Below, piece by piece: positions 13,738 through 63,342 of a stretch of 64,000 bases of DNA (its first letter is position 1; each line of letters begins with the position of its first letter). The stretch comes from Candidatus Kurthia intestinigallinarum (GTDB lineage Bacteria > Bacillota > Bacilli > Bacillales_A > Planococcaceae), in the NCBI RefSeq assembly GCF_003991225.1, contig NZ_JTFC01000026.1, positions 1 through 64,000 on the forward strand. Reading direction: 5' to 3'. Made by a program: the position numbers and the translations under genes. The notes under the pieces were generated by a model. The model ran no database searches. It was not told the origin of the DNA and saw nothing but the letters and a program-made list of their open reading frames with translations.

Positions 13738-14073
13738 ACAACTTATTCGAGCGGAAGGGTAGAAAGCCTTGAGAGCAAGGCTTCCCTTTAGCAGAGCATA
13801 GAATAGCAGAGCATAGTTGAGAGAAATTGAAGAGTAAGAGTAGTAGCAATTGGTCGTATGGATAGAGAGTCAGTGGCTGGTGGAAACTGATCATGCAAAA
13901 TTGTGAATGGACTTATGAGAGCATTTGTGAACGATAGTAGCAAATGACGCATCATCCCCGTTAACGGATGCTGAGCAATCAGGCAAAGTGGAAGCGATAT
14001 GCTTCAACTTGAGGTGGCAACGCGGTAGCAATCGTCCTCATGAAAGAGTTATTCTTTCGTGAGGGCTTTTTTT
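13738..14073 (+). promoter_or_regulatory. T-box leader (Trp specifier) of trpDCFBA
   Basis: The leader contains the conserved T-box sequence GAGGTGGCAACGCGG (14011-14024 region) and ends in a strong terminator: CCTCATGAAAG/CTTTCGTGAGG, 14036-14064, then T7. In the stem I region the specifier loop reads GAATGGAC, giving TGG (Trp) at 13908-13910. The antiterminator bulge TGGC pairs exactly with GCCA, the end of tRNA-Trp with its usual G discriminator. Uncharged tRNA-Trp should therefore open expression of the trp genes. B. subtilis uses TRAP instead for this operon. Confidence 0.92.
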
Positions 14074-30028: not shown

Positions 30029-30059
30029 TTAGTTAACTTTGTATTATTTTATGTTGACT
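30029..30059 (+). promoter_or_regulatory. BirA-like operator, upstream copy
   Basis: TTAGTTAACT and the half-site GTTGAC lie 21 bases apart centre to centre, resembling the two GTTAAC-cored halves of BirA operators. TTGACT (30054-30059) inside it could be the -35. Both halves are imperfect. The following gene set includes BioY and YhfT/YhfS-like proteins, whose B. subtilis counterparts are in the BirA regulon. Confidence 0.4.
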
Positions 30060-30101
30060 TATCTAGTCTATTTTCGCTATTTCGCTACTTTTTGCATTTA
30101 T

Positions 30102-30135
30102 TTGAGTTAACCATTTAAAATTTTATGTTTACTAA
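30102..30135 (+). promoter_or_regulatory. BirA-like operator, downstream copy
   Basis: TTGAGTTAACC (GTTAAC at 30106-30111) and GTTTACTAAA (GTTTAC at 30127-30132) show the same 21-base half-site distance as the copy at 30029. GTTAACC and GTTTAC halves are typical of biotin-repressor sites in Bacillales. It ends 53 bases before the bioY start. Confidence 0.45.
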
Positions 30136-30187
30136 AAACGCAATACCTTGTATGATTACTTTAGATTCTTGCAAAGGGGATAGGAAA

Positions 30188-30757
30188 ATGACAACAAAAG
30201 AAATGGTTTACGCGGCGTTATTCGCGGCATTACTAGGGGTATTAGGAATGATTCCACCAATTCCGCTTGGTTTTATTCCAGTACCGATTACACTTCAAAC
30301 ATTTGGCGTAATTTTAGCAGGGTGTTTCCTTGGTAAAAAAATAGGGACAATTAGTATGGTGCTATTTATTGTACTCGTTGCACTTGGCCTACCATTACTA
30401 TCGGGCGGACGTGGCGGAATTGGCGCGTTAATGGGCCCATCCATCGGTTATATTTTGAGTTGGCCATTCGCCGCCTTTTTCATCGGATATTTCACTGAAA
30501 AGGCATGGTCGACATTAAATCTTTGGAAAGTTATTGGAGTTACGCTTGTATTCGGGGTGCTTTTCATTAATATTGTTGGCGCACCTATTATGGCAATGAT
30601 TACACATACATCAATTGTTGGGGCATTAATGGGTGGCTTAGCATTTTTACCAGGTGACTGTATAAAAGCCGTACTTGCTGCGGTTGTCGCTGTACAACTA
30701 AAAGCTGTTAGTCCAATTAATACCGTTGCTTTACGACACGTCGTACGAACGCATTAA
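30188..30757 (+). CDS. bioY: Biotin transporter substrate-binding subunit BioY
   Basis: 189-residue S component of an ECF importer with six helices. The BioY landmarks are visible: PIPLGFIPVPITLQTFGVILAG near residue 25 (here split by length), GLPLLSGGRGGIGALMGPS and GYILSWPFAAF. The start at 30188 follows AAAGGGGATAGG; the longer frame from 30125 is unsupported and overlaps the operator. First gene of the operon. Energy-coupling partners (two ATPases and EcfT) are encoded 4-6 kb downstream in the same operon, which is unusual because BioY mostly borrows a shared ECF module. It resembles B. subtilis YhfU. Confidence 0.92.
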   Translation: MTTKEMVYAALFAALLGVLGMIPPIPLGFIPVPITLQTFGVILAGCFLGKKIGTISMVLFIVLVALGLPLLSGGRGGIGALMGPSIGYILSWPFAAFFIGYFTEKAWSTLNLWKVIGVTLVFGVLFINIVGAPIMAMITHTSIVGALMGGLAFLPGDCIKAVLAAVVAVQLKAVSPINTVALRHVVRTH

Positions 30758-30778
30758 TCATTAAAAAGGAGGGATGAT

Positions 30779-32131
30779 ATGCATTGTATAACACCTATTT
30801 TGGGACAACCTAAAGAAAACATCGCTATCGTAATGGGGGATAAAAAAATTGATTATCAGACATTACAGCGAGATATCGCACAAATAGCACATACATTTCA
30901 GTGTTCACAGCAGAAAAAGGTTGCGCTTGATATGCCCAATGGTTATGACTTTCTTAAAACATTTTTAGGTGCAGTTGCTGCAGGGGTAGTACCTTATCTA
31001 CTCGATCCGAAATGGAGTGCGCATGAGAAACAAGAAATTCTCAAAAATCATTTGTTAGACTGTATTATTACCGCGCCATTAAATGAACAACCAAATGATA
31101 CATATGAATTACGGGAAGCATCATCCCTTTTTGTTGGGTTTACTTCGGGTACAACAGGCATGCCGAAAGCCTATAAACGGTCGCATCTCTCTTGGATGGA
31201 AAGCTTTCGTGTAACAGCGAAAGCTTTTTCTCTTGAAAATACGAAGCATTACTGTGCCCCTGGTCCTCTTGTACACTCGATGACACTATTTGCGGCGATG
31301 CAAGCATTGGTTGAAGGAAAGACCATTCATTTACAAACTAAATTTAATGCCAAACAGGTTCTTACGACGTGTCAAAAATATCCGAATACCGCGCTATTTG
31401 TCGTACCCACAATGCTTGAAGCAATGGTACAGACCGGTCTTCAAGCTACGATTGATGCCATTATTAGTTCTGGTGCAAAATGGCAAGATGATTCCAAAAA
31501 ACGACTGGCGAAGATTTTTCCACATACTGCGCAATATGAATTTTTTGGTTCCTCTGAAGCAAGTTATATTAGCTATTCTGACGGAACAAAGCCTGATACG
31601 GTTGGCCGCTTCTTTCCTACGGTTGATTATACAATTCGTGATGAAGCCTTTCGTGAAGTTGAGGAAGGGCTTCTCTATATTAAAAGCCCTATGATTTTTA
31701 GTGGTTATGTAGACAATCCAAAGGCTACTGCTGAAATTTTTCATAATGGCTGGCTAAAGGTAGGAGATATTGTAACGGTGGATGAAACAGGCTATCTTAC
31801 CATTAAAGGTAGGGCAAAAAATCGTATTATTTCTGGTGGTTTAAATATTTTTCCAGAAGAGATTGAACAGTTATTATCTAACCATCTGGCGATTGAGGAA
31901 GTGATGGTTTGTGGGCTGGAGGATCGCTATTGGGGAGAGAAAGTGGTGGCCTTGATTCAGTGGAGCCACCAGCCACTGACATATGATGCGTTAAAACATT
32001 ATTGTACGCGCTATTTAGCAGTCTATAAATTCCCTCGAGAAATCGTGACCGTCCCTCGATTTTATTATACGACGAGTGGAAAAATCGCACGTCAAAAAAT
32101 GAAGGAGGCATTTCTATGTCAGAAGTTGTGA
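30779..32131 (+). CDS. Acyl-CoA ligase (AMP-forming), YhfT-like
   Basis: 450-residue adenylate-forming enzyme that activates a carboxylic acid to acyl-CoA. Motifs are FTSGTTGMPKAYKRSH (A3), FFGSSEASY (A5), LKVGDIVTVDETGYLTIKGRAKNRI (A7-A8, about residues 322-346) and the catalytic Lys in YYTTSGKIARQKM. It is shorter than typical FadD (about 510), with a reduced N-terminus. The start lies 6 bases after AAGGAGGG and the end overlaps the thiolase gene by 16 bases. The order BioY-ligase-thiolase matches B. subtilis yhfU-yhfT-yhfS. Substrate unknown. Confidence 0.88.
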   Translation: MHCITPILGQPKENIAIVMGDKKIDYQTLQRDIAQIAHTFQCSQQKKVALDMPNGYDFLKTFLGAVAAGVVPYLLDPKWSAHEKQEILKNHLLDCIITAPLNEQPNDTYELREASSLFVGFTSGTTGMPKAYKRSHLSWMESFRVTAKAFSLENTKHYCAPGPLVHSMTLFAAMQALVEGKTIHLQTKFNAKQVLTTCQKYPNTALFVVPTMLEAMVQTGLQATIDAIISSGAKWQDDSKKRLAKIFPHTAQYEFFGSSEASYISYSDGTKPDTVGRFFPTVDYTIRDEAFREVEEGLLYIKSPMIFSGYVDNPKATAEIFHNGWLKVGDIVTVDETGYLTIKGRAKNRIISGGLNIFPEEIEQLLSNHLAIEEVMVCGLEDRYWGEKVVALIQWSHQPLTYDALKHYCTRYLAVYKFPREIVTVPRFYYTTSGKIARQKMKEAFLCQKL

Positions 32132-33243
32132 TTGTTTGGGCAAAACGTACACCAATTGGGCGGGCCGGGGGGCAATTTCATACCCTTGAGCCAAGTGATT
32201 TAGTTGCTCCGTTATTAAAGCAGGCAATCAAAGATACGGTAGGCGATGCTTCATTAGTTGACGATGTAATGATAGGGAATGTAGTAGGACCTGGCGGTAA
32301 CGTAGCACGTGTGAGCCTATTACAAGCAGGGTTTCCTGTAACCGTTCCCGGTGTCACAATTGACAGGCAATGTGGTTCTGGACTAGAAGCCATTATGCGT
32401 GGCTTTGAAGCAATAAAAAGTGGACAAGCACAAATAATTTTAGCAGGTGGTGTAGAAAGTGTTAGTCGCGCTCCTTGGAAAATGGCTCAACCGACAAGAC
32501 CTGGGGCAGTGCCTACGCTCTATACGCGGGCTCCTTTTACCCCTGCTGCTTACGGAGACCCTGATATGGGCATAGCTGCCGAAGAAGTTGCAGCACGTTA
32601 TCAAATTACGCGAGAAGCACAGGACTATTACGCCTTTTCAAGTCATCAAAAAGCAGTGACGAGTCAACGAACGGGTCGCTTTAACAAAGAGATTTTACCA
32701 CTCCAAGGCGTTATGACTGATGAATGTCCACGTGCGGATACCTCAGTTGAAAAATTAGCACATTTACATCCTGTTTTTCTTCCAGAAGGCACCGTAACTG
32801 CTGGGAATGCTTGTCCCCTAAATGATGGAGCGGCAATTGTTATGTTAATGTCACGCGAGGCATGCCTACATTATAAATTGACTGCCTATGCGACTATTGT
32901 AGATGCTACGGCAGCTGGTGTCATGCCGGACATTTTAGGAATGGGTCCAGTACCAGCAACACAAAAACTACTCGCCCGTCAGCAGTTACAAGTGACAGAT
33001 ATTGATATTGTCGAGTTTAATGAAGCGTTTGCTTCACAAGTACTTGCTTGTCTCCAACAATTAAAGATTCCACAACATCTTGTCAATATTGGGGGAGGCG
33101 CATTGGCACTTGGTCACCCATACGGGGCATCGGGCGCTATTTTAATTACGCGTCTCGTTCATGAATTAAAAAAAGGACAACGTGGGCTTGCTACTCTTGG
33201 AATCGGCGGTGGGATGGGGCTCTCGATGTTGGTGAAGCGATGA
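32116..33243 (+). CDS. Thiolase-family protein, YhfS-like, second catalytic Cys replaced
   Basis: 375-residue thiolase fold. The nucleophile Cys86 is in DRQCGSGLEA, VEFNEAFASQV is present, and the catalytic His334 is in GGALALGHPYGASG. The C-terminal CxGGGxG loop, which supplies the acid/base Cys in working thiolases, reads LGIGGGMGLSM, with Gly362 in place of Cys. Ordinary acetyl-CoA condensation or thiolysis should be badly impaired, so the protein may catalyse another acyl transfer or be a degraded copy. It overlaps the ligase upstream by 16 bases and the next gene by 4, so it is under the same translation coupling. Confidence 0.85.
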   Translation: MSEVVIVWAKRTPIGRAGGQFHTLEPSDLVAPLLKQAIKDTVGDASLVDDVMIGNVVGPGGNVARVSLLQAGFPVTVPGVTIDRQCGSGLEAIMRGFEAIKSGQAQIILAGGVESVSRAPWKMAQPTRPGAVPTLYTRAPFTPAAYGDPDMGIAAEEVAARYQITREAQDYYAFSSHQKAVTSQRTGRFNKEILPLQGVMTDECPRADTSVEKLAHLHPVFLPEGTVTAGNACPLNDGAAIVMLMSREACLHYKLTAYATIVDATAAGVMPDILGMGPVPATQKLLARQQLQVTDIDIVEFNEAFASQVLACLQQLKIPQHLVNIGGGALALGHPYGASGAILITRLVHELKKGQRGLATLGIGGGMGLSMLVKR

Positions 33244-33554
33244 ATGAATGGCATGCCTCCCTCTCACAAGTGCAAGGATATCAACGTTTAATGGGGATGC
33301 CTTTATCTAAAGAAATTCCGTTAAGTATATTACCAACCATACTAGGAGAAGCATTTCCGACAGGGTGGATCCATTTATCGCAGCAATGTGAAAAAATGAC
33401 TTCATTATACGCAGATACATTTTATAACTGGGCGATTACAGATAAGCATTTAAGCATTACGTCAAAAGGAAAAACTGTCTGTCAATTAACGGTTGCGCTC
33501 TCACGTAATAAACAGGTTGTAGCAACCGTTGTCATGACATTGATGAAAGGATAA
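33240..33554 (+). CDS. Half-size hot-dog-like protein, possible dehydratase partner
   Basis: 104 residues starting ATGA on the thiolase stop. Pattern: RLMGMPLSKEIPLSILPTILGEAF, then a beta-rich second half (KHLSITSKGKTVCQLTVALS). I do not recognise it firmly. Its size, its place directly before a MaoC-like half protein and its strand-helix-strand pattern suggest a non-catalytic hot-dog half, comparable in idea to the paired subunits of mycobacterial HadAB. Function is inference. Confidence 0.6.
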   Translation: MNEWHASLSQVQGYQRLMGMPLSKEIPLSILPTILGEAFPTGWIHLSQQCEKMTSLYADTFYNWAITDKHLSITSKGKTVCQLTVALSRNKQVVATVVMTLMKG

Positions 33555-33560
33555 TTAAAT

Positions 33561-33875
33561 ATGGAATGGCTAATTACACGTCAAAAAGTTCAAGCATTTT
33601 CGGCGTTAAGTGGTGATGATAATGCCTTACATCATGATGCAACCTTCGCTCAACAACTAGGATTTGAGCAGCCAATTGCACATGGTATGTTATTAATGGC
33701 ACTTGCAGAAGGCGCATGGCAACAGCATTATAAGGTTTGTCCAACAACAATGCGATGTCAATTTGTCTATCCTGTGCCTATTCCATCAGTGATTACTGTA
33801 CGATTAACAAAAAAAGAAATACACGCTTATAATGCAGAACAACTCGTTTTGCATGTAGTATTTGAGGAGGAATGA
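33561..33875 (+). CDS. MaoC-like hot-dog enoyl-CoA/ACP hydratase (short)
   Basis: 104 residues with the (R)-specific hydratase signature: FSALSGDDNALHHDATFA (Asp and His of the hydratase 2 motif) followed by FEQPIAHGMLLMAL. This is the catalytic MaoC/PhaJ pattern. The protein is 30-50 residues shorter than usual MaoC enzymes, so it probably works as a dimer or with the preceding half-size protein. In the operon it would interconvert 3-hydroxyacyl and enoyl thioesters made by the SDR and thiolase-like proteins. Confidence 0.85.
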   Translation: MEWLITRQKVQAFSALSGDDNALHHDATFAQQLGFEQPIAHGMLLMALAEGAWQQHYKVCPTTMRCQFVYPVPIPSVITVRLTKKEIHAYNAEQLVLHVVFEEE

Positions 33876-33879
33876 CAGA

Positions 33880-34620
33880 ATGATTTTTATTACAGGTGCT
33901 ACGCGTGGCATCGGCTTCGCTCTTGCAAAACAGTTTTCGCAGGAGCCTTTAATTTTACATGGATCATCTGAACAATCGATTGCTCCCCTTCGTGATTTAT
34001 TTCCACAAGCGCTCTGTCTGGCTGCAGATTTTTCAAATGAACTGGAAATTCAAGAGATGCTACGACAAATTAATCACTATACAGATACATTAACGGCAAT
34101 TATTCATTGTGCAGGAAATACTAAAGATAAACGTGCGACTAATATGACATTAAAAGACTTTAATCATGTTTTTCATGTGCATGTGACGAGTTTTTTCCTT
34201 ATAACAACCGCCTTACAACCGTTATTAAAGCCAATGAGTGACGTGCTTGTTATGACTTCAACAGCTGGTTTATTCGGTTCGCGGGGACAATTAAACTATA
34301 GCGCAGCAAAGGGCGCTCTAACAATGATGACCTATACGTTAGCAGCAGAGTGGAAATCAGAAAAAATTCGTGTCAATGCGATTGCCCCTGCTGCTTTAAC
34401 TGATATGACGCGTCCTGTAATTGCCTACTATAAACAGAAAAGTGAACAGCAAAAAATTCCGTTCCCTGATTTTTGGCGTGTGGGATCAGCAGACGATGTA
34501 GCCTACTTTGTTAAAAAATTAGTTGCACGGACAGATTTTTTTACGGGTCAAGTTTTTGGCGTGAATGGTGAGAAGTATACACGCTATGCTGCAGACATGG
34601 TGAGGTGGTCCCCGTGTTAA
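33880..34620 (+). CDS. SDR-family 3-ketoacyl reductase (FabG/PhaB-like)
   Basis: 246-residue SDR. ATG 33880 lies 9 bases after GAGGAGG; the TTG frame start at 33862 sits before that site. Cofactor motif TGATRGIG (5-12); HCAG replaces NNAG at 76-79; the catalytic triad is complete with Ser127, Tyr140 and Lys144 (NYSAAKG). It should reduce a 3-ketoacyl-CoA or -ACP with NADPH. It overlaps the first ECF ATPase gene by 7 bases. Because phaB is absent from the PHA locus at 42 kb, this gene is one candidate to supply (R)-3-hydroxyacyl-CoA. Confidence 0.88.
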   Translation: MIFITGATRGIGFALAKQFSQEPLILHGSSEQSIAPLRDLFPQALCLAADFSNELEIQEMLRQINHYTDTLTAIIHCAGNTKDKRATNMTLKDFNHVFHVHVTSFFLITTALQPLLKPMSDVLVMTSTAGLFGSRGQLNYSAAKGALTMMTYTLAAEWKSEKIRVNAIAPAALTDMTRPVIAYYKQKSEQQKIPFPDFWRVGSADDVAYFVKKLVARTDFFTGQVFGVNGEKYTRYAADMVRWSPC

Positions 34621-35369
34621 CCGTTGAAAACACTACATACTATCATACGCCAGGTCATGGTATCGAGAATCTCTGCTTCACCGTTTACGAGCAAGATTGT
34701 CTCGTCCTACTCGGAGCGAACGGGAGCGGGAAGTCAACGGTCCTATCGTTACTTGCAGGCCTTTTAACGCCACAATCTGGGAAAATACTGTATGAAGGTA
34801 ATCCAGTTAAGCCAGGGGAAATCGGGATTGTCTTTCAGCATCCTGATGATCAGTTTATTACGACGTCAGTCATGGATGAAGTTATTTTTGGATTAGAAAA
34901 TTTACAAGTGCCACGCGAGGAAATGACCGCCCGCGCTTATCAGGCATTAGATGAGGTTGGTATGCGCTGGGCTATAGAACGCCATCCAATGACGCTTTCT
35001 GGTGGCGAAAAACAACGTGTTGCATTAGCAGCTGTGCTAGCGATGCGCCCGAAAATTTTACTATTAGATGAAGTGACCGCTATGTTAGATTCCCATGCAC
35101 GTAGTGATTTTTACACGCTACTAAAAACATTAAAAAAACGCTATACAATTGTTATGACGACGCATATTGTTGAAGAATATTTATTTGCAAATCGCGTTTG
35201 TTACTTGCAAAATCATCGTATCGTATTTGATGGAGACTTACCTACATTTGCAGCACATTATCCGACATACGCAATGCCTTTTATCATTGAATTTCAAAGA
35301 ACGTGTCATTTACCGATTTGCATCCAAACGTATGAGGAGTGTGTTGAACAAATATGGCCATCACTTTAA
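34614..35369 (+). CDS. ECF transporter ATPase (EcfA/CbiO-like), first copy
   Basis: 251 residues from GTG 34614, 5 bases after GAGGTGG inside the SDR gene end. Walker A GANGSGKST, Q-loop VFQHPDDQF (characteristic of ECF ATPases), signature LSGGEKQR, Walker B LLLDEVTAMLD and switch His in MTTHIVEE. The Walker B tail has EVTAMLD as in EcfA1-type proteins. Couples ATP hydrolysis to the EcfT-S-component complex. It overlaps the second ATPase gene by 16 bases. Confidence 0.92.
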   Translation: MLTVENTTYYHTPGHGIENLCFTVYEQDCLVLLGANGSGKSTVLSLLAGLLTPQSGKILYEGNPVKPGEIGIVFQHPDDQFITTSVMDEVIFGLENLQVPREEMTARAYQALDEVGMRWAIERHPMTLSGGEKQRVALAAVLAMRPKILLLDEVTAMLDSHARSDFYTLLKTLKKRYTIVMTTHIVEEYLFANRVCYLQNHRIVFDGDLPTFAAHYPTYAMPFIIEFQRTCHLPICIQTYEECVEQIWPSL

Positions 35370-36181
35370 AGAATGTTACACTAGAGCGTTCATCACATGT
35401 TATTTTACGCGATGCTTCATTTCAATTTTCTGACAATAAATGGACGGCGATAGTAGGAGAAAACGGAGCAGGGAAATCAACGCTATTGCAAGCCATTCAA
35501 CAATTTATACCGATACAGCAAGGACATATTCATCTAGACGGGAAAATAGGTTTTTTATTCCAACATGCAGATCAACAATTTTTCGAGTCAACGGTTGAGA
35601 AAGAATTACGTTTCGCTCCACGTCATTTTGGATGGTCTCGTGAAAAAACAGATGCAAAGATAGCGGAAGTGTTAAATCTTGTACAGCTAGATGCATCTAT
35701 TTTACCGATGTTACCTTATCAACTTAGTGGGGGACAAAAAAAGCGGTTAGCACTTGCTCTTGTATTTATGATGGAGCCAACTATTTTGCTAGCAGATGAA
35801 CCAACAGCTGGACTTGATCCAGTGCAACGCGCACTAGTGCTGTCGATTTTGAAAAAATGGCAACAGCAAGGACATACGATTATTGCGATTACTCATGAAT
35901 TAACGGATGTGTTAACTTTTGCAGATGATGTCTTGTTGATGGCTAAAGATAAGGCCCCTCAACTGTTTGAAACGGAGCAATTTTTCTTTGAGGTTCCAAA
36001 ACGAAAAGGAGTTTATTTTCCACCACCTATTGCGATGTTTCACTTAATAGAACAACGCTTACAATCTCCGCTGCCACGCGCACGTTCAATGCCCGCACTC
36101 ATACAAATTATGAAAGAGGCGATACCTAATGGAACAAGTTATTCAATATGTAGCACGCACGTCCATTCTACATCGTCTTGA
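35354..36181 (+). CDS. ECF transporter ATPase (EcfA/CbiO-like), second copy
   Basis: 275 residues. Walker A GENGAGKST, Q-loop FLFQHADQQF, signature LSGGQKKR, Walker B LLADEPTAGLD and switch His in ITHELTDV. It is the second member of the ATPase heterodimer. The C-terminus runs 53 bases into the EcfT gene in a different frame, an overlap longer than usual, so the last residues may be little constrained. ECF modules with two ATPases plus EcfT are normally shared by several S components. Confidence 0.9.
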   Translation: MAITLKNVTLERSSHVILRDASFQFSDNKWTAIVGENGAGKSTLLQAIQQFIPIQQGHIHLDGKIGFLFQHADQQFFESTVEKELRFAPRHFGWSREKTDAKIAEVLNLVQLDASILPMLPYQLSGGQKKRLALALVFMMEPTILLADEPTAGLDPVQRALVLSILKKWQQQGHTIIAITHELTDVLTFADDVLLMAKDKAPQLFETEQFFFEVPKRKGVYFPPPIAMFHLIEQRLQSPLPRARSMPALIQIMKEAIPNGTSYSICSTHVHSTSS

Positions 36182-36872
36182 TCCACGAACTAAAATAATA
36201 GGGTTAAGCTTTCTATTAATCGGTTTCACCCAAATTCACGAGTGGATACAACTTGTTTTTTCGGCATTCGTAGTCGGCTTGTTATATCATTTTGCACAAA
36301 TCCCTTTTAGCTATGCGCTACATTCAATACGCCCATTACTCCTAATTTTATTGCTGACGTTGCTTTATCATAGTATGTTTTCAGGTATAACCTATTTAGC
36401 AGGATTTTTAATGGGCCTACATTATGTCCTTAAGCTTTTAATGATGATTTTAAGTGGTGTTTTATTAACAGCGACTACCAAACCACTTGAGCTTGCACTT
36501 GGACTTGAAACAATGTTGCGCCCTCTTGAAAAATGGCGTATTCCTGTTGGCCAATGGGCATTAATGATTGTTCTGGCATTACGCTTTTTCCCATTAATTA
36601 TCGAAGAATGGGAACGGATTCGTCTAAGTCAACAGGCGAGAGGCATCACAATAAAACGGTTTAGACAACGGTTGTATAGCCCAGTGCAACAAGTGATTCC
36701 GCTACTCTTAGCACTCATTACACGAGCAGAACGTTTAAGCATTGCGATTGAAGCACGCGGATTTCGACAGGGGTTTAATCGAACACATTTTCGTCTTCTT
36801 GCTTTTCAAAAAAAGGATGGTTACTGCATTTTATTTCCAATATTTGTATCAATCATTGTATTATTATTATAG
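36129..36872 (+). CDS. ECF transporter transmembrane subunit EcfT
   Basis: 247 residues with about five to six helices and the two Ala-Arg-Gly coupling motifs (SQQARGI and AIEARGF) that dock into the ATPases. This is the T component linking the ATPase pair to BioY. Its presence completes a full, apparently dedicated importer in the bioY operon. Confidence 0.92.
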   Translation: MEQVIQYVARTSILHRLDPRTKIIGLSFLLIGFTQIHEWIQLVFSAFVVGLLYHFAQIPFSYALHSIRPLLLILLLTLLYHSMFSGITYLAGFLMGLHYVLKLLMMILSGVLLTATTKPLELALGLETMLRPLEKWRIPVGQWALMIVLALRFFPLIIEEWERIRLSQQARGITIKRFRQRLYSPVQQVIPLLLALITRAERLSIAIEARGFRQGFNRTHFRLLAFQKKDGYCILFPIFVSIIVLLL

Positions 36873-36884
36873 GGAGTGACAATT

Positions 36885-37202
36885 ATGAATCTTCGTGGTC
36901 AACTTGTAGATGAGCAAACACGCTGCGTCCACTATCATACATCAAAGGATATTATCGCTATCAAAATGAAATGCTGTCATACATATTATCCATGCTATCA
37001 ATGTCATGAGGAGGAAGCAGATCACCCGATTACGCGATGGACAAAAGTGGAGTGGGATGAAAAAGCAATTCTTTGTGGGCGTTGTCATGAAGAATTGTCG
37101 ATTGCGACCTATTTAGCACATGATACATGTCCACATTGTCACGCTGCATGGAACCCTCGTTGTGAGGGGCATTACCACTTGTATTTTGAAATGGAGGAAT
37201 GA
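36885..37202 (+). CDS. CHY zinc-finger protein
   Basis: 105 residues from ATG 36885, 8 bases after AGGGAG. The metal ligands are dense: CVHYHTSKD, CCHTYYPCYQCHEEEADH, CGRCHEEL, CPHCHAAWNPRCEGHYHLYF. This is the stand-alone CHY-type zinc finger, related to the Hot13/CHY domain, thought to bind two or three zinc ions. Bacterial role unknown. Its stop overlaps the possible ATG 37199 of the next gene. Confidence 0.85.
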   Translation: MNLRGQLVDEQTRCVHYHTSKDIIAIKMKCCHTYYPCYQCHEEEADHPITRWTKVEWDEKAILCGRCHEELSIATYLAHDTCPHCHAAWNPRCEGHYHLYFEMEE

Positions 37203-37204
37203 CG

Positions 37205-38164
37205 ATGAACACACGGATTACAGAGCTTTTTGGAATTCAACTACCGATTATTCAAGGCGGCCTAGCCTATCTGGCCTATGCTGATTTAGCGGCTGCGGTT
37301 TCAAATGCGGGCGGATTAGGTCAGGTTACGGCGTTAAGTTTACCTGATCCGGAAGCACTGCGACATGAAATTAAGCGTACGCGTTCACTGACGGATAAGC
37401 CTTTTGGTGTCAATTTTGCGATGGGGATGCACGGAACAGGTTATGAGGCGTTTATACAAGTAGCGATTGACGAGAAAGTGCCGGTTGTATCCATTACAGG
37501 TGGAAATCCCGCTACGGTTTTAGCGATGCTAGAAGGAACGGGTATTAAAAAGCTTGTACTTGTGGCGGGTGTGCGCCAAGCACAAAAGGCAGAGGAGCTT
37601 GGCGCCGATGCCGTCATCGTCGTAGGTCAAGAAGGCGGCGGCCATTTAGGACGTGATGACTTAGGCACAACGGTCCTTACACCACGCGTCGTTGATTCGG
37701 TTTCGATTCCTGTTATTGCTTCAGGTGGTTTAGCGGATGGTCGTGGTCTTGCGGCAGGACTTGCGCTCGGTGCGGAGGGTATTGAAATGGGTACGCGTTT
37801 TATTGCTACAAAGGAATGCGTCGATGCTTCGGACTATTACAAGCAACTTTTACTCGATAGCACAGAGCAAAATACTGTCGTCGTTAAACGTTCGATTGGT
37901 GGTCCTGCACGTGTTATTCATAATGCTTTTGCGGATGAAATTTTAGCCATTGAGCAACAGACACCGACCTATGAGGCATTAAAGGAACATATTAGCGGGC
38001 AAGCGAATCGCCGGTTAATCCATGATGGTGAGGAGAATGGTATGGCCTTTGCTGGACAGGTCATTGGCTTGATCGATGATGTGCCTACTGTGGCGGAATT
38101 ATTTGCACGCATCGAAGCGGAATATAAAGCAGTAGTAACGCGTTTTTCAGAAATTTCAAAATAA
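37205..38164 (+). CDS. NPD/FabK-family flavoprotein (nitronate monooxygenase or enoyl reductase-like)
   Basis: 319-residue FMN TIM barrel of the nitronate monooxygenase/FabK group. PIIQGGLAYLAYADLAAAVSN near the N-terminus, VVGQEGGGHLG, PVIASGGLADGRGLAAGLALG (21 residues, about 170-190) and EMGTRFIATKEC carry the FMN phosphate and flavin contacts. ATG 37205 is 7 bases after GGAGG; ATG 37199 would be only 1 base away. FabK relatives reduce enoyl thioesters, which would supply the step the rest of the operon lacks, but nitronate oxidation is equally typical of the family. Last gene of the operon. Confidence 0.82.
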   Translation: MNTRITELFGIQLPIIQGGLAYLAYADLAAAVSNAGGLGQVTALSLPDPEALRHEIKRTRSLTDKPFGVNFAMGMHGTGYEAFIQVAIDEKVPVVSITGGNPATVLAMLEGTGIKKLVLVAGVRQAQKAEELGADAVIVVGQEGGGHLGRDDLGTTVLTPRVVDSVSIPVIASGGLADGRGLAAGLALGAEGIEMGTRFIATKECVDASDYYKQLLLDSTEQNTVVVKRSIGGPARVIHNAFADEILAIEQQTPTYEALKEHISGQANRRLIHDGEENGMAFAGQVIGLIDDVPTVAELFARIEAEYKAVVTRFSEISK

Positions 38165-38217: not shown

Positions 38218-38373
38218 TTTCTTATCAAGAGCGTTGGAGGGACTGGCCCATTGAAGACGCAGCAACAGACATTTTGTACTGTGCTAATTCCTGTAGCATC
38301 ATTTGCTAAAAGATGAGAAGAGAACGGCATCCCATTCGACACCAACCTCTTCTTATCGAGAAGAGGTTTTTTT
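38218..38373 (+). promoter_or_regulatory. SAM-I (S-box) riboswitch
   Basis: The aptamer opens with CTTATCAAGAG and GGAGGGACTGGCCC, then GAAGACGCAGCAAC, all S-box landmarks, and P1 closes with GATGAGAAG (38219-38226 with 38312-38319). The expression platform is the terminator AACCTCTTCT/AGAAGAGGTT (38344-38368) plus T7. High S-adenosylmethionine should stop transcription of the downstream cyclase-family gene. Confidence 0.95.
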
Positions 38374-38401
38374 GTTATTTAAATCGAAAGGGAGATGAGG
38401 T

Positions 38402-39148
38402 ATGACAACCACACAGCAATCGATTCAACAGGCACTATCACTTTTAAAGGAGCGTACATGGGTGGATTTAACGCATAACTTTAGTGCCGATACCCCCCGC
38501 TTCAATGCCTTCTCGCCGCTTGAGAAGAAAACGTTATTCGATTATTCAGCAGGCTTTTTCGCACAACAATTTACCTTTGCAGGACAATATGGCACGCATA
38601 TTGATGCGCCAGTTCATTTTGTTGAAGGCGGCCGCTATTTAAATGATATTACGTTAAAAGAGCTTGTATTACCGCTCGTTGTCATCGACGTTTCAACAGA
38701 CGTCGCAAAAAATCCTGATTTTACGATTACCGTACGAGAAATCCTTTCATTTGAGGAACAGTACGGGGAAATCGATAGCGGCTCATTTGTCGCACTACGT
38801 ACCGATTGGTCAAAGCGCATTGATGATAGCGAGGCATTTAATAATAAGGATGCAGACGATGTGGCTCATACGCCAGGCTGGTCTGTTGAAGCACTCCGTT
38901 TCTTATTTGAAGAGCGACACATTCGCGCAGTCGGTCATGAAACCTTTGATACGGATTCAAGTGAGGAATTTTATAAAAATAAAGCGCTCAAGGCAGAGCT
39001 TTATGTGTTACAGCAAGATGCTTATCAGATTGAATTGTTGACGAATTTAGATCAATTACCCGCAAAAGGCGCGGTCATATTCAATATCGTCGCAAAACCT
39101 GATAAAGCAACAGGATTTCCGGTACGCTCATTTGCGATACTACCGTAG
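38402..39148 (+). CDS. Cyclase-family metal hydrolase (KynB-like fold) under SAM control
   Basis: 248 residues. The cyclase-family signature is YGTHIDAPVHF (about residues 61-71), whose His and Asp bind zinc, with VGHETFDTDSS downstream. Relatives include kynurenine formamidase KynB and isatin hydrolase. No kynurenine genes are near. It is the only gene between the SAM-I riboswitch and its terminator, so expression should follow sulfur/methionine status, pointing to a role in sulfur or methyl metabolism that I cannot name. GGGAGATGAGG precedes the ATG. Confidence 0.85.
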   Translation: MTTTQQSIQQALSLLKERTWVDLTHNFSADTPRFNAFSPLEKKTLFDYSAGFFAQQFTFAGQYGTHIDAPVHFVEGGRYLNDITLKELVLPLVVIDVSTDVAKNPDFTITVREILSFEEQYGEIDSGSFVALRTDWSKRIDDSEAFNNKDADDVAHTPGWSVEALRFLFEERHIRAVGHETFDTDSSEEFYKNKALKAELYVLQQDAYQIELLTNLDQLPAKGAVIFNIVAKPDKATGFPVRSFAILP

Positions 39149-41399: not shown

Positions 41400-41912
41400 T
41401 TATTTTACAACTGGAACGGCAGGAATTGAATCAAGTAAAGACTTGTGATTTTCTTTTAGTTTCGCTGTTAAATCTTCAATGTTTGCTAATGCTTTTTGGC
41501 GCTCTGATTTTTGCTCAGAAAGCGTTGTGTTGATTGCTTTTTCCCATTCTGTTTGCGCATTACGGATGTAATCCACGACAGCGTGGTTCGGTTTCCAAGA
41601 TAATTCTTGCGCTTGCTCTGTTGCTTCTTTTAACGTGTCGATCCACGTAGACAATTGTGCAGACTGTGCAGGTGTTGTGAATGCTTCAAATGAAGAAGTC
41701 ACTTGTTTTTGCCAATCTTTAATCGCTTGGTTTGATTTTTCTTCGACATTCTTATAAGAAGTAAGTGCTTGATCGAATGCTGATTTTTGTGCAGCGAATG
41801 CTTCTACTGCGCGTTTTTCTGCATCTTCTTGCACCGTATTGATTGCCTTTACACTGTTTAACCAGTTGTCCCAAATAAGATCTACGCTTTTTGTTAATAG
41901 TTCGTTTGCCAT
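41400..41912 (-). CDS. phaP: PHA granule phasin PhaP
   Basis: 170 residues, entirely amphipathic helix, Ala/Lys/Glu/Gln rich, with no signal peptide and a Pro-Val tail (IPAVPVVK). This matches the Bacillus-type phasin that coats polyhydroxyalkanoate granules and limits their size. It lies downstream of phaQ and divergent from phaRC, which is the gene order known from B. megaterium and B. cereus. GGGAGGAAATT precedes ATG. Confidence 0.88.
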   Translation of the reverse strand: MANELLTKSVDLIWDNWLNSVKAINTVQEDAEKRAVEAFAAQKSAFDQALTSYKNVEEKSNQAIKDWQKQVTSSFEAFTTPAQSAQLSTWIDTLKEATEQAQELSWKPNHAVVDYIRNAQTEWEKAINTTLSEQKSERQKALANIEDLTAKLKENHKSLLDSIPAVPVVK

Positions 41913-41974
41913 GTTAAATTTCCTCCCTAATAGTGGTCATGTTTTTTTAAAGCATGAGCGGGGAGTCTTGGCTG

Positions 41975-42373
41975 CTAGTCGTTGGTGTCATCCGCTTCAT
42001 CCGTCTTTTTACTAGCTGGCGTGCTAGGGAAAAGGAACGGATTGTACAATTTGAAGAAGTTCGTTAAGAGTTTTTGGTATTCGCCAAATGAACCGGCCCA
42101 CAAGTCTAAGTAGCTCAGACCTTCTTCAGTAATGGCGTAAATACGCTTCGCTGGACCATTTTCCTCCGTATTCCACTCGGAAGTGACAAGCTCATCTTTT
42201 TCAAGCTGTCGTAAAATACGATAAAAATTTCCTCGGTCGACAGAATCAACACCGAATGTTGTCAGCTTTTCCATTAGCTCATATCCATAGGCGTTAATAT
42301 CACGCAAATGGAGCAAGATGATGGGCACTAAAATGTTTTTTGGTGCGCCCATTTGTGGTTTTTTCGAATTCAT
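41975..42373 (-). CDS. phaQ: PadR-family PHA regulator PhaQ
   Basis: 132 residues from ATG 42373 after AGGTGAT. N-terminal winged-helix PadR domain: PKNILVPIILLHLRDINAYGYELM, then DRGNFYRILRQLEKDELVTSEW with the wing strand AKRIYAITEEG (each cited in parts). PhaQ in B. megaterium represses phaQP and is released by PHB granules. A perfect 13-base palindrome over the -10 of this gene (42404-42416) is the likely operator. 62 bases separate it from phaP. Confidence 0.9.
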   Translation of the reverse strand: MNSKKPQMGAPKNILVPIILLHLRDINAYGYELMEKLTTFGVDSVDRGNFYRILRQLEKDELVTSEWNTEENGPAKRIYAITEEGLSYLDLWAGSFGEYQKLLTNFFKLYNPFLFPSTPASKKTDEADDTND

Positions 42374-42403
42374 TGCTATCACCTATCTTCAAATTACTTA
42401 TAA

Positions 42404-42416
42404 GTGTAATTTACAC
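42404..42416. promoter_or_regulatory. Candidate PhaQ operator
   Basis: GTGTAA-T-TTACAC is a perfect palindrome, and one more pair holds outside it. It covers the -10 of the minus-strand phaQP promoter, exactly where a repressor would block RNA polymerase. Confidence 0.6.
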
Positions 42417-42436
42417 CTATGTGCATTTTGTGTCAA
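42408..42436 (-). promoter_or_regulatory. phaQP promoter
   Basis: On the minus strand a perfect -35 TTGACA (42431-42436) is followed after 17 bases by -10 TAAATT (42408-42413), about 35 bases upstream of the phaQ start. Confidence 0.65.
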
Positions 42437-42472
42437 GCATTTCAAAAAACTTTTTCCAAACAGTAAAATTAA

Positions 42473-42500
42473 TTGAAATAATTGAAGATTATGGTAAAGT
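42473..42500 (+). promoter_or_regulatory. phaRC promoter
   Basis: -35 TTGAAA (42473-42478) and extended -10 TGGTAAAGT (TAAAGT 42495-42500), 16-base spacer, 42 bases before the phaR start. Confidence 0.55.
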
Positions 42501-42541
42501 GAAAAATGTAAAACGATTTTATTGATAGAGGAGGAATTTAC

Positions 42542-43075
42542 GTGACGAATCAAACATTTGATGCGTTCGGTATCTGGAAAGAGATGTACGACCGTACAGA
42601 GAGCGCATTCCGCGACTCGATTCAATCAACACTTGAACAACCCGCATTCGCAGAAGGGTTAGGGCAAGTACAAAAGCAATATTTACAATATCAAGGGCTT
42701 GTGAATGGCATGACAGAATCTTATTTAAAACAAGTAAACGTCCCATCACGCGACGAAATTGCGAGCATTGCTTCACTTGTTATTAATGTAGAGTCGAAGT
42801 TAATTGATTTAGAAGATCAATTAGACGTACAAGAGGATGCACATGATAGCCACGCAAAAGAAATTAAGCAGTTAAAAACAACGGTGAACCGTCTAGATAA
42901 GAAATTAGATACGGTCATTGAGTTATTAACGAAGCAAGTAGAGGCAAAAGCAGCTGCTACGCCAACACCAACACCAAAGGCGGTGCCGCAAAAGCCTCTG
43001 ACACCAGCACCGAATGCACAAGTGAAAACAGCGGCAACACCTGCTGCAAAAAACACATCACAGACGAAAAAATAA
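42542..43075 (+). CDS. phaR: PHA synthase subunit PhaR (class IV)
   Basis: 177 residues from GTG 42542 after GAGGAGG. N-terminal FGIWKEMYDRTESAFRDSI is the PhaR signature. A coiled-coil stretch lies at about residues 85-135 (VESKLIDLEDQLDV; LKTTVNRLDKKLDTVIELL), and the tail is rich in Ala, Pro, Thr and Lys, with low complexity. PhaR forms the active class IV synthase with PhaC. In the Bacillus paradigm phaB lies between phaR and phaC; here it does not. Confidence 0.92.
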   Translation: MTNQTFDAFGIWKEMYDRTESAFRDSIQSTLEQPAFAEGLGQVQKQYLQYQGLVNGMTESYLKQVNVPSRDEIASIASLVINVESKLIDLEDQLDVQEDAHDSHAKEIKQLKTTVNRLDKKLDTVIELLTKQVEAKAAATPTPTPKAVPQKPLTPAPNAQVKTAATPAAKNTSQTKK

Positions 43076-43146
43076 TATTCCTAAACGAATGTGTTACATT
43101 TTCATCAACATAGAGCCACTCCTAGAATAAATGAAGCCATTTGGAT

Positions 43147-43172
43147 ATCCTTTACTTTTCCGCTAAAGGATA
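43147..43172 (+). other. Hairpin in the phaR-phaC gap
   Basis: ATCCTTTA and TAAAGGAT can pair around a short C-rich loop, without a T tract. It sits in the 136-base gap where phaB would stand in other Bacillales, and may set RNA stability. The rest of the gap is unremarkable. Confidence 0.4.
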
Positions 43173-43211
43173 CTGAAACATACTACTTATTTTGATATTG
43201 GAGGTTTTGTT

Positions 43212-44318
43212 GTGAGTAATGGAGTACCAACAGCGTCGTTCGAACAATGGATCGAAGCGATGAAATTACCAGAAGAAGCCGTGTTGCCACAGGATTTAGA
43301 GAAGATTAAACGTTTTACAGAGGTTGTAACAACGGAATCAGACCCGCAAGTAGGTCAAACGCCGAAAGAAGTTATTTGGACAAAAAATAAGTCAAAATTA
43401 TACCATTATGCACCACATGCGAAAAAGACGAATAAAGTGCCAATTTTATTCATCTACGCATTAATTAATCGCTCATATATTTTAGATTTATACCCAGGAA
43501 ATAGCTTAATTGAGTACTTAGTAAACGATGGCCATGATGTGTACTTACTTGATTGGGGTACAGCCGGTCACGAGGATCGTCATATGAAAATTGACGATTA
43601 TATCGTAGACTACATCCCACGCGCAGCGAAAAAAGTATTAAAAGATTCAGGCGCAAAGGAACTAACAATTTATGGGTACTGCATGGGCGGTACGATGTCG
43701 ACGATTTTCACATCGCTTTATAATGACATTTTACCGATTAAAAATCTTGTTTTAATGACGTCACCAACAGACTTTGAAGACGCTGGTCTTTATACGAACT
43801 GGTTAAACAAAGACACATTCCAATTAGATAAAATGGTTGATACACTTGGGAATATTCCATTTGAAATGATTGACTATGGAAATCGCTTATTAAGCCCAAT
43901 CTCTAACTCGCTTGGCACATATGTTGGTCTTGCAAGTCGTATCGAAAACGACAATGCCGTGTTAACGTGGAAGCTTATGCAAAAATGGTTAAACGATGGC
44001 GTACCATTCCCAGGGGAAGCTTATCGTCAGTGGATTCGCGACTTCTATCAAGAAAATAAACTCGTTAAAGGTGAACTAGCCGTTCGCGGTCAAGAAGTGA
44101 AGCTTTCAAATATTAAGGCGAACTTATTAAACATCTGCGCAACACGCGATAATATCGTACAGCCAGAGCAAATTAAGGCGCTAAACAAACAAGTTTCAAG
44201 TAAAGTAAACACACTTCACGAAGTACCAACAGGTCACGTGTCGGTATGTACAGGCCGCTATGCGCAGAAAGAGATTTATCCTTTCGTTAGCAAATGGCTA
44301 AAAGATCACTCGAAATAA
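43212..44318 (+). CDS. phaC: Class IV polyhydroxyalkanoate synthase PhaC
   Basis: 368 residues from GTG 43212 after GGAGG. Alpha/beta-hydrolase fold polymerising (R)-3-hydroxyacyl-CoA. The lipase-like box GYCMGG has the nucleophile Cys157, with Asp313 in ATRDNIVQP and His342 in PTGHVSVCTG. The length and the companion phaR place it in class IV. It acts at the granule surface with PhaR and PhaP. No phaA or phaB is in the cluster, so monomer supply must come from elsewhere. Confidence 0.95.
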   Translation: MSNGVPTASFEQWIEAMKLPEEAVLPQDLEKIKRFTEVVTTESDPQVGQTPKEVIWTKNKSKLYHYAPHAKKTNKVPILFIYALINRSYILDLYPGNSLIEYLVNDGHDVYLLDWGTAGHEDRHMKIDDYIVDYIPRAAKKVLKDSGAKELTIYGYCMGGTMSTIFTSLYNDILPIKNLVLMTSPTDFEDAGLYTNWLNKDTFQLDKMVDTLGNIPFEMIDYGNRLLSPISNSLGTYVGLASRIENDNAVLTWKLMQKWLNDGVPFPGEAYRQWIRDFYQENKLVKGELAVRGQEVKLSNIKANLLNICATRDNIVQPEQIKALNKQVSSKVNTLHEVPTGHVSVCTGRYAQKEIYPFVSKWLKDHSK

Positions 44319-50061: not shown

Positions 50062-50089
50062 TTCTCTATTGTTTTTAAAAGAGAATAAC

Positions 50090-50228
50090 CCTTGTATAAT
50101 TTCAAGAATATGGCTTGAAAGTTTCTACCAGCTACCAATAATAGCTTGTCTACAAGGAATGGGATACTGTAATACGTTTATTTCATTTTGTAGAGAAACT
50201 TTGACTATGCCATAGTCAAAGTTTTTTT
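50090..50228 (+). promoter_or_regulatory. Guanine/hypoxanthine riboswitch
   Basis: P1 CCTTGTA/TACAAGG (50090-50096 with 50151-50157), J1/2 TAAT, P2 TTCAAG/CTTGAA with AATATGG loop, J2/3 GTTTCTACC, P3 AGCTA/TAGCT. J3/1 reads GTCTA, with C at the purine-pairing position, so it should bind guanine or hypoxanthine rather than adenine; the base before it is T, where A is usual. The expression platform is a terminator AAACTTTGACTATG/CATAGTCAAAGTTT (50196-50224) with T7. Ligand shuts off pbuG. Confidence 0.9.
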
Positions 50229-63091: not shown

Positions 63092-63342
63092 AAAAAAGTC
63101 CTCTACCGCGCTCCTAAGAACGCGATAGAGGACGAATGGAATCCGCGGTACCACCTCGATTACAGCTACTCGCTGTCACTCATACATAACGGTGTACGAC
63201 CGGATTTCCCTACTGTCATTCAAGAAACCACTCTGAGGCCCATTCCTAGCAGACATGCTCCTAGGCTCACACCATTCCTAGGTCGCTCTTAGTCATGCGG
63301 TTGCTCGTACTCTCCCTCATCAACGTGTTTTATATCGTGATT
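63092..63342 (-). promoter_or_regulatory. T-box leader (Trp specifier) of trpEG
   Basis: On the minus strand: T-box sequence GAGGTGGTACCGCGG (about 63144-63158) and terminator GTCCTCTA-CGCG/CGCG-TAGAGGAC (63098-63133) with T6. In stem I the specifier loop reads GGAATGGGCC, giving TGG (Trp) at 63240-63242. The antiterminator bulge is TGGT, so its variable base would pair with a G discriminator only by wobble, unlike TGGC in the trpD leader. Uncharged tRNA-Trp should switch on trpEG. Confidence 0.88.

Follow-up and report, generated by a model that had tools for sequence, protein, structure and literature searches.

Why should a gene for the biotin importer component BioY stand in one operon with a set of enzymes that act on acyl-CoA chains? 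The question is raised by a locus of Candidatus Kurthia intestinigallinarum (RefSeq assembly GCF_003991225.1), located in the 64,000-nucleotide stretch of contig NZ_JTFC01000026.1 that was analysed here (positions 1 to 64,000, referred to as the window). Eleven tightly packed genes on the + strand (window 30188-38164) code, in this order, for BioY, an acyl-CoA ligase, a thiolase-fold enzyme, two half-size hot-dog proteins (hd1 and hd2), a short-chain dehydrogenase/reductase (SDR), two ATPases and the transmembrane protein EcfT of an energy-coupling factor (ECF) module, a CHY zinc-finger protein and an NPD/FabK-like flavoprotein. An earlier reading, made from the sequence alone, had listed the same genes as overlapping or nearly touching, and all of them were found with matching families. 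Our results indicate that this is very probably a biotin-scarcity operon under BirA, and acyl-CoA elongation is somewhat more likely than not to be the function of its enzymes; that the substrate is a biotin vitamer is possible, though doubtful. The explanation that leads overall, a BirA-repressed operon through which a biotin-like acid is imported and elongated to biotinyl-CoA, is a tentative one.

Distribution and probable biotin-type control of the operon

Related loci were collected with a profile of three thiolases in named genomes, and 80 of 150 confirmed relatives were kept. Fifty-nine of these have an operon-type thiolase, with glycine at position 362, 20 are of the ordinary cysteine type and one is truncated (L111). 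A ligase or bioY lies within three genes at all 59 operon-type loci, and bioY is there at none of the 20 cysteine-type loci. The gene runs of the 59 loci include the ligase at 56, bioY at 43, a recognised hd2 at 36, the SDR at 36, EcfT at 29, the NPD protein at 24 and the CHY protein at 13. Conserved co-occurrence in Bacillales had been named as a check of the sequence-only reading, and when it was run, bioY, hd2, SDR and EcfT were found together at 27 of the 59 loci, in Kurthia huakuii, Lysinibacillus odysseyi, Rummeliibacillus, two Psychrobacillus, Fontibacillus and Paenibacillus species. Four loci (three Paenibacillus, one Cohnella) hold the enzymes with neither bioY nor ECF genes, shorter forms occur in Halobacillus, Thalassobacillus, Pseudalkalibacillus and Alteribacillus, and Staphylococcus has a short form without bioY. 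That the ligase and the condensing enzyme accompany a biotin-type importer holds for another phylum as well: in a Chloroflexi metagenome-assembled genome (L105 400-6549) bioY, a Gly-type thiolase and the ligase stand next to the gene of an 833-aa protein in which two ABC ATPase stretches are fused to an EcfT domain. The operon is also present in a genome of the same genus (G070), where the contig that bears it is 818,569 bases long, and in K. huakuii (L063). With hd1 as bait, seven of 151 genomes in the window's own family were matched, three with the operon and four without; the operon is therefore in at least 3 of 151, a lower bound because hd1 evolves fast.

Gene searches were made in 32 carrier genomes, namely the window's own, G070, L. 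odysseyi (G019) and 29 from the 59 loci, with the short forms of Halobacillus, Staphylococcus and others outside the set. Twenty-seven of the carriers have the long form (L085 among them without bioY), four are enzyme-only and one has bioY, ligase, thiolase and ECF genes without hot-dog and SDR genes. The 32 are what a selection of 34 comprised apart from L067 and L081.

Two tandem BirA-type palindromes precede bioY. A chance estimate for the first of them is circular, the pattern having been derived from that same site, and a single box of such score is not unique, with nine matches of at least 16/17 across the 64 kb, two of them at the operon. The first palindrome is independently supported because there is a second box, because similar boxes stand at both other bioY loci of the Kurthia genome, one of which is a bioY-bioB pair, and because a BirA-like box was found upstream of 48 of the 59 related loci as against 13 of 469 control genes from the same loci. 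Boxes were also found at all four operons with the enzymes and neither bioY nor ECF genes (L066, L069, L073, L079), from which the enzymes themselves look to be under BirA-type control in their own right; these four and five of the ten Staphylococcus loci make up the nine boxed loci among the 16 that lack bioY. Eleven of the 59 loci are unboxed (L065, L085, L100, L104, L105, L108, L112, L114, L116, L134, L135), of which L100 is not a fair test, the box having been sought before the ligase while bioY was masked by a spurious antisense open reading frame.

The BirA helix-turn-helix model TIGR00122 has a match in 32 of 32 carrier genomes, above its cut-off in none of them, and in five (G152, G153, G155, G163, G179) the distance between a match of this type and the operon thiolase is some 2.3 kb. 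At one of these five loci (L083 6737-8504) birA precedes the operon and points away from bioY, with its helix-turn-helix and ligase domains (PF08279 and PF03099) above cut-off. In Staphylococcus aureus, BirA binding and biotin repression have been measured at the bioY and yhfS-yhfT promoters, according to the portion of the source available (PMC6391492). The link to BirA proposed in the sequence-only reading is thus supported by the boxes, as is the proposed kinship with the BirA-regulated yhf genes of Bacillus subtilis, for which the adjacency of bioY, ligase and thiolase, as in the bioY-yhfT-yhfS group, speaks as well. This core is already known from B. subtilis and S. aureus, where, in the parts of the literature consulted, BioY, an acyl-CoA ligase and a thiolase are under BirA as they appear to be in Kurthia. 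At the ten Staphylococcus loci two small proteins come after the ligase and thiolase, and a D..NP.H motif is present in the second of them; unlike the Kurthia operon, their gene runs have no ECF module, SDR or NPD gene. In S. aureus the products of the pair also go by the names VraA/VraB.

Acyl-chain enzymes and biotin importer

The thiolase fingerprints CxS (as CGS), NEAF and GHP are present in the window's protein and its aligned relatives, with a few single-residue variants (for example CGA in L063), and the protein shares with Z. ramigera-type thiolases the N and C domains and a TIGR01930 score above cut-off. The difference lies in the CxG motif, whose cysteine is described, in the parts of the sources seen, as the base in Z. 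ramigera thiolase (PMC3406046; see also PMC4595758). This cysteine is replaced by glycine in 60 of 60 operon-type thiolases and retained in 20 of 20 others (truncated L111 left out), and a change from serine to cysteine at 233 is equally fixed in the operon type. Because the base cysteine is lost in all 60, ordinary acetyl-CoA condensation by this enzyme is doubtful, and we infer either a decarboxylating condensing enzyme or one in which the base has moved. A GIGGG stretch at the end of the thiolase resembles, by eye, the ends of Escherichia coli FabF and FabH. A reading of the C-terminal glycine as similar to that of ketoacyl synthases rests on the eye, because hhalign of the thiolase profile against FabH/FabF at best aligned the nucleophile region and did not reach the C-terminal end. 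Lesser matches, below cut-off, were obtained with models of 3-oxoadipyl-CoA thiolase and BktB.

The two hot-dog proteins show the pattern of a split (3R)-hydroxyacyl dehydratase, with a predicted catalytic half that bears an Asp/His dyad and a predicted partner half. HadAB/HTD2-type dehydratases likewise have two hot-dog halves, one with the dyad; the Kurthia halves are of 104 aa each. In hd2 the MaoC-type Asp and His are unchanged in all 18 aligned rows (for both proteins, the window and 17 of 35 pairs), and all 36 recognised hd2 proteins have the motif. No Pfam match was obtained for hd1 itself. Its positional orthologs at L099, L100 and L101 match FAS1_DH_region (PF13452) above cut-off, and its AlphaFold2 (AF2) model resembles HTD2 and HadA chains in Foldseek. 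In Salibacterium salarium (L109 11158-11985) the two dehydratase halves are naturally fused. The SDR retains TGATRGIG and YSAAK, and the nearest PDB relatives of the NPD protein, which fails the FabK model, are PA1024 and FabK. The sequence-only reading had assigned to this set condensation, ketoreduction, dehydration and possibly enoyl reduction of an acyl thioester; the enzyme types found fit the first three in the chain-building direction, and enoyl reduction by the NPD/FabK-like protein stays possible, at a score below the FabK cut-off. The same four steps on acyl thioesters are common to reverse beta-oxidation modules, from which the Kurthia operon differs in its R-type dehydratase, its non-canonical thiolase and its biotin control.

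The S, A and T components of an ECF importer are encoded in this one operon, and domain matches support the earlier claim that bioY has its own energy-coupling module here. This module is an extra one, because another EcfA1-A2-T set is encoded elsewhere in the Kurthia genome, beside ribosomal-protein genes (neighbours identified by eye). BioMNY of Rhodobacter is a dedicated biotin ECF transporter, and bioYMN of Corynebacterium glutamicum is another example. As in such systems, a single operon supplies BioY with an ATPase and a T component of its own; unlike them, the Kurthia operon has two ATPase genes and holds acyl-CoA enzymes as well.

Biotin synthesis in carrier genomes and possible substrates

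BioB is absent in 24 of the 32 carrier genomes. Without BioB, biotin can be obtained only from a molecule that already carries the biotin ring system, and therefore a route that needs no BioB has to start from such a molecule. In the Paenibacillus group of G151, with a thiolase threshold of E 1e-125 or better, 33 of 100 genomes have the operon thiolase (one of them partial, with a stop), 27 have BioB, none has both and 40 have neither. The exclusion has a Fisher p of 2.4e-6, a value that ignores kinship among the genomes, and it is not general because carriers with BioB exist outside this group.

The explanation that we place first draws on these absences as well as on the genes, their conserved order, the boxes and the enzyme types. 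At low biotin, BirA would release the operon, and BioY, its own EcfA1-A2-T motor and the acyl-CoA elongation module would be made. BioY would bring in a biotin-like acid, such as a biotin with a shortened side chain (e.g. bisnorbiotin), which the ligase would convert to its CoA thioester. The thiolase-fold enzyme would then add two carbons, presumably from a malonyl rather than an acetyl donor, the SDR would reduce the 3-keto group, the split hot-dog dehydratase would remove water and the NPD/FabK-like flavoprotein would reduce the enoyl group. One round on bisnorbiotin, or two on tetranorbiotin, would give biotinyl-CoA and from it biotin, in bacteria unable to make biotin. In its most specific form, a new salvage pathway in which biotin shortened by beta-oxidation is extended again to biotinyl-CoA, in one or two reductive rounds, by a thiolase-fold enzyme without the base Cys that is probably decarboxylating, this explanation is rather unlikely. 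Biotin catabolism for carbon was also considered and is not favoured, as a catabolic set should not be biotin-repressed and family models found no acyl-CoA dehydrogenase among the 11 operon genes.

Several observations weigh against the salvage of a biotin vitamer. BioB is present in 8 of the 32 carriers (the window's genome, G070, G019, G157, G158, G162, G165, G168), and in the window's family, where 96 of 151 genomes have it above cut-off, all three carriers found have it too. Fifteen of the 33 Paenibacillus carriers are also among the 32, so that the two tests overlap; the 40 Paenibacillus genomes with neither gene and the neglect of kinship in the Fisher test count on the same side. Among the 16 loci without bioY, seven are unboxed (L085, L104 and five of the ten Staphylococcus loci). 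No thioesterase was recognised within the operon, and the change from Cys to Gly could mean no C-C chemistry at all. As far as the sources seen in part tell, BirA controls bioY and yhfS-yhfT in both B. subtilis and S. aureus (PMC6391492, PMC7235819, PMC11089781), S. aureus, with BirA-controlled bioY and yhfS-yhfT, makes biotin (PMC12642757), and breeding has turned a Kurthia strain into a biotin producer (PMC11089781). Every substrate considered here is a putative one.

The biotin-vitamer mechanism comes first in our ranking, another acid and a bypass of acetyl-CoA carboxylase follow close behind, and pimeloyl and polyhydroxyalkanoate (PHA) supply come last. It is conceivable, though again doubtful, that a different exogenous acid is activated or modified at low biotin, or that the thiolase-fold protein is an acyltransferase and not a condensing enzyme. 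The missing base Cys and the fixed residue at 233 mark a distinct thiolase subfamily, and YhfS and YhfT are only putative homologs in the parts of the literature consulted, as such a role would allow. The adjoining ketoreductase, dehydratase and, often, enoyl-reductase-like protein point instead to a 3-keto product.

The strongest named rival concerns lipids. In biotin-starved cells acetyl-CoA carboxylase would fail and malonyl-CoA fall, and the operon would extend acyl-CoAs with acetyl-CoA as a biotin-sparing route to fatty acids. Regulation and enzyme set would be identical, biotin auxotrophs, as the carriers lacking BioB would be, would need such a route most, and the thiolase scores above the cut-off of TIGR01930, the general model for acetyl-CoA C-acyltransferase. 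A bioA mutant of S. aureus showed increased membrane fluidity under strict biotin limitation, in the part of that paper available (PMC12642757). Even so, we judge this bypass unlikely. The glycine in place of the base Cys makes acetyl-CoA condensation doubtful, an enzyme that used malonyl-CoA would not get round the carboxylase, and a ligase, unnecessary for de novo chains, belongs to the core. Loss of acc in S. aureus leads to fatty-acid auxotrophy according to the same partial source, although in that case, with biotin available, repression of the genes would be expected (PMC12642757).

Building or trimming of pimeloyl-CoA for BioF by these enzymes, the route to biotin favoured in the sequence-only reading, is very improbable. 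The BirA link, the below-cut-off matches to the 3-oxoadipyl-CoA thiolase and BktB models and the occurrence of related genes in biotin makers would suit it. In addition to the absences of BioB and the thiolase without base Cys, BioF is above cut-off in one of the 32 carriers; 12 have an intact BioF/Kbl protein below cut-off, two have a split gene and 17 have no strong match to BioF/Kbl (none better than E about 1e-6). The split genes, in two Paenibacillus carriers (G160 C66:185936-187008 and G175 C19:48380-49455), possibly reflect decay or sequencing error. The candidate of the window's genome passes the glycine C-acetyltransferase and BioF/Kbl subfamily models and narrowly misses the BioF model (412 vs 426 bits). 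L. odysseyi has bioB and, by eye, bioD-bioA-bioY with no strong BioF match, suggesting the use of imported intermediates. Pimeloyl supply was rejected for most carriers searched from these absences, and for carriers without BioF and BioB it is already refuted unless an unrelated route from pimeloyl to biotin is present. Kurthia itself is perhaps capable of completing biotin from dethiobiotin; none of the three bioY loci of the window's genome is a bioD-bioA-bioY operon, as judged by eye, with no search aimed at BioA or BioD. Pairs of bioY and bioB were seen at L054 9460-11078 (window's genome), L059, L060 and L061.

Supply of (R)-3-hydroxyacyl-CoA to a PHA synthase, the alternative offered in the sequence-only reading, is the least probable role and was rejected as a conserved one: the R-type dehydratase/hydratase pair and a nearby phaC (window 43212-44318, TIGR01836 415 bits, about 5 kb from the operon) fit it, but PhaC was found by TIGR01836 in 5 of 32 carriers, the window's genome included (a search not aimed at other PhaC classes as such), neither biotin-type control nor BioY suits carbon storage, and oppositely directed genes separate phaC from the operon. 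PhaP-like and PhaR-like genes were seen by eye in the same region as phaC (window 41400-44318).

Layout of the locus and implications

The positions of the boxes and genes are given in Table 1. The start of bioY was set as listed; a longer start, at 30125, is covered by the second box.

Table 1. BirA-like boxes and genes of the operon, in window coordinates, with the matches that support each assignment
Feature	Position	Strand	Evidence and remarks
BirA-like inverted repeat 1	30029..30061	+	TTAGTTAAC-N15-GTTGACTTA
BirA-like inverted repeat 2	30103..30135	+	TGAGTTAAC-N15-GTTTACTAA
bioY, S component of biotin ECF importer	30188..30757	+	PF02632 125 bits; gap 21 to ligase
Acyl-CoA ligase (YhfT-like)	30779..32131	+	PF00501, PF13193 above cut-off; NF005797 386 bits (cut-off 518, below); overlap 16 with thiolase
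Thiolase-fold putative condensing enzyme (YhfS-like)	32116..33243	+	PF00108/PF02803; TIGR01930 426 bits (cut-off 241, above); CGS, NEAF, GHP present; CxG base Cys replaced by Gly362; overlap 4 with hd1
hd1, hot-dog half without Asp/His motif, predicted partner half of split dehydratase	33240..33554	+	Positional orthologs PF13452; AF2 pLDDT 89; Foldseek; gap 6 to hd2
hd2, predicted catalytic MaoC half, Asp19 and His24	33561..33875	+	PF01575 66 bits; gap 4 to SDR
SDR reductase, FabG-like	33880..34620	+	PF13561/PF00106; TIGR01830 131 bits (cut-off 298, below); overlap 7 with EcfA1
EcfA1-type ATPase	34614..35369	+	PF00005; TIGR04520 best, 207 bits (cut-off 315, below); overlap 16 with EcfA2
EcfA2-type ATPase	35354..36181	+	PF00005; TIGR04521 best, 191 bits (cut-off 330, below); overlap 53 with EcfT
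EcfT transmembrane component	36129..36872	+	PF02361 105 bits; gap 12 to CHY
CHY zinc-finger protein	36885..37202	+	PF05495 47 bits; overlap 4 with NPD; in operon at 13/59 related loci
NPD/FabK-like flavoprotein, putative enoyl reductase	37199..38164	+	TIGR03151 278 bits (cut-off 453, below); PDB relatives PA1024, FabK; in operon at 24/59 related loci

The NPD gene is followed by an S-adenosylmethionine (SAM) riboswitch (38219-38319), and the gene behind it, which together with the riboswitch spans window 38219-39148, codes for what by eye resembles a hydrolase of the cyclase/kynurenine-formamidase type. Two T-box leaders and a purine riboswitch lie elsewhere in the window (13821-14042, 63125-63332 and 50072-50172).

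No function for yhfT-yhfS was found in the parts consulted of the open-licence PMC literature (PMC6391492, PMC7235819, PMC11089781), and within the same literature no description was found of the long operon, the Gly-type thiolase or a bacterial salvage of bisnorbiotin. Two model organisms have yhfT-yhfS in their BirA regulon, and the long form of the operon shows a likely full reaction set. For most of the carriers searched, the distribution of this form rules out pimelate, the obvious answer, and since operon thiolase and BioB do not overlap in Paenibacillus, the question can be put as a growth test on a few biotin vitamers. If the salvage of shortened biotin proves true, it would be a new bacterial way to an essential vitamin; in many Paenibacillus it would replace de novo synthesis, and it would account for the presence of yhfT-yhfS in the biotin regulon of B. 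subtilis and S. aureus.

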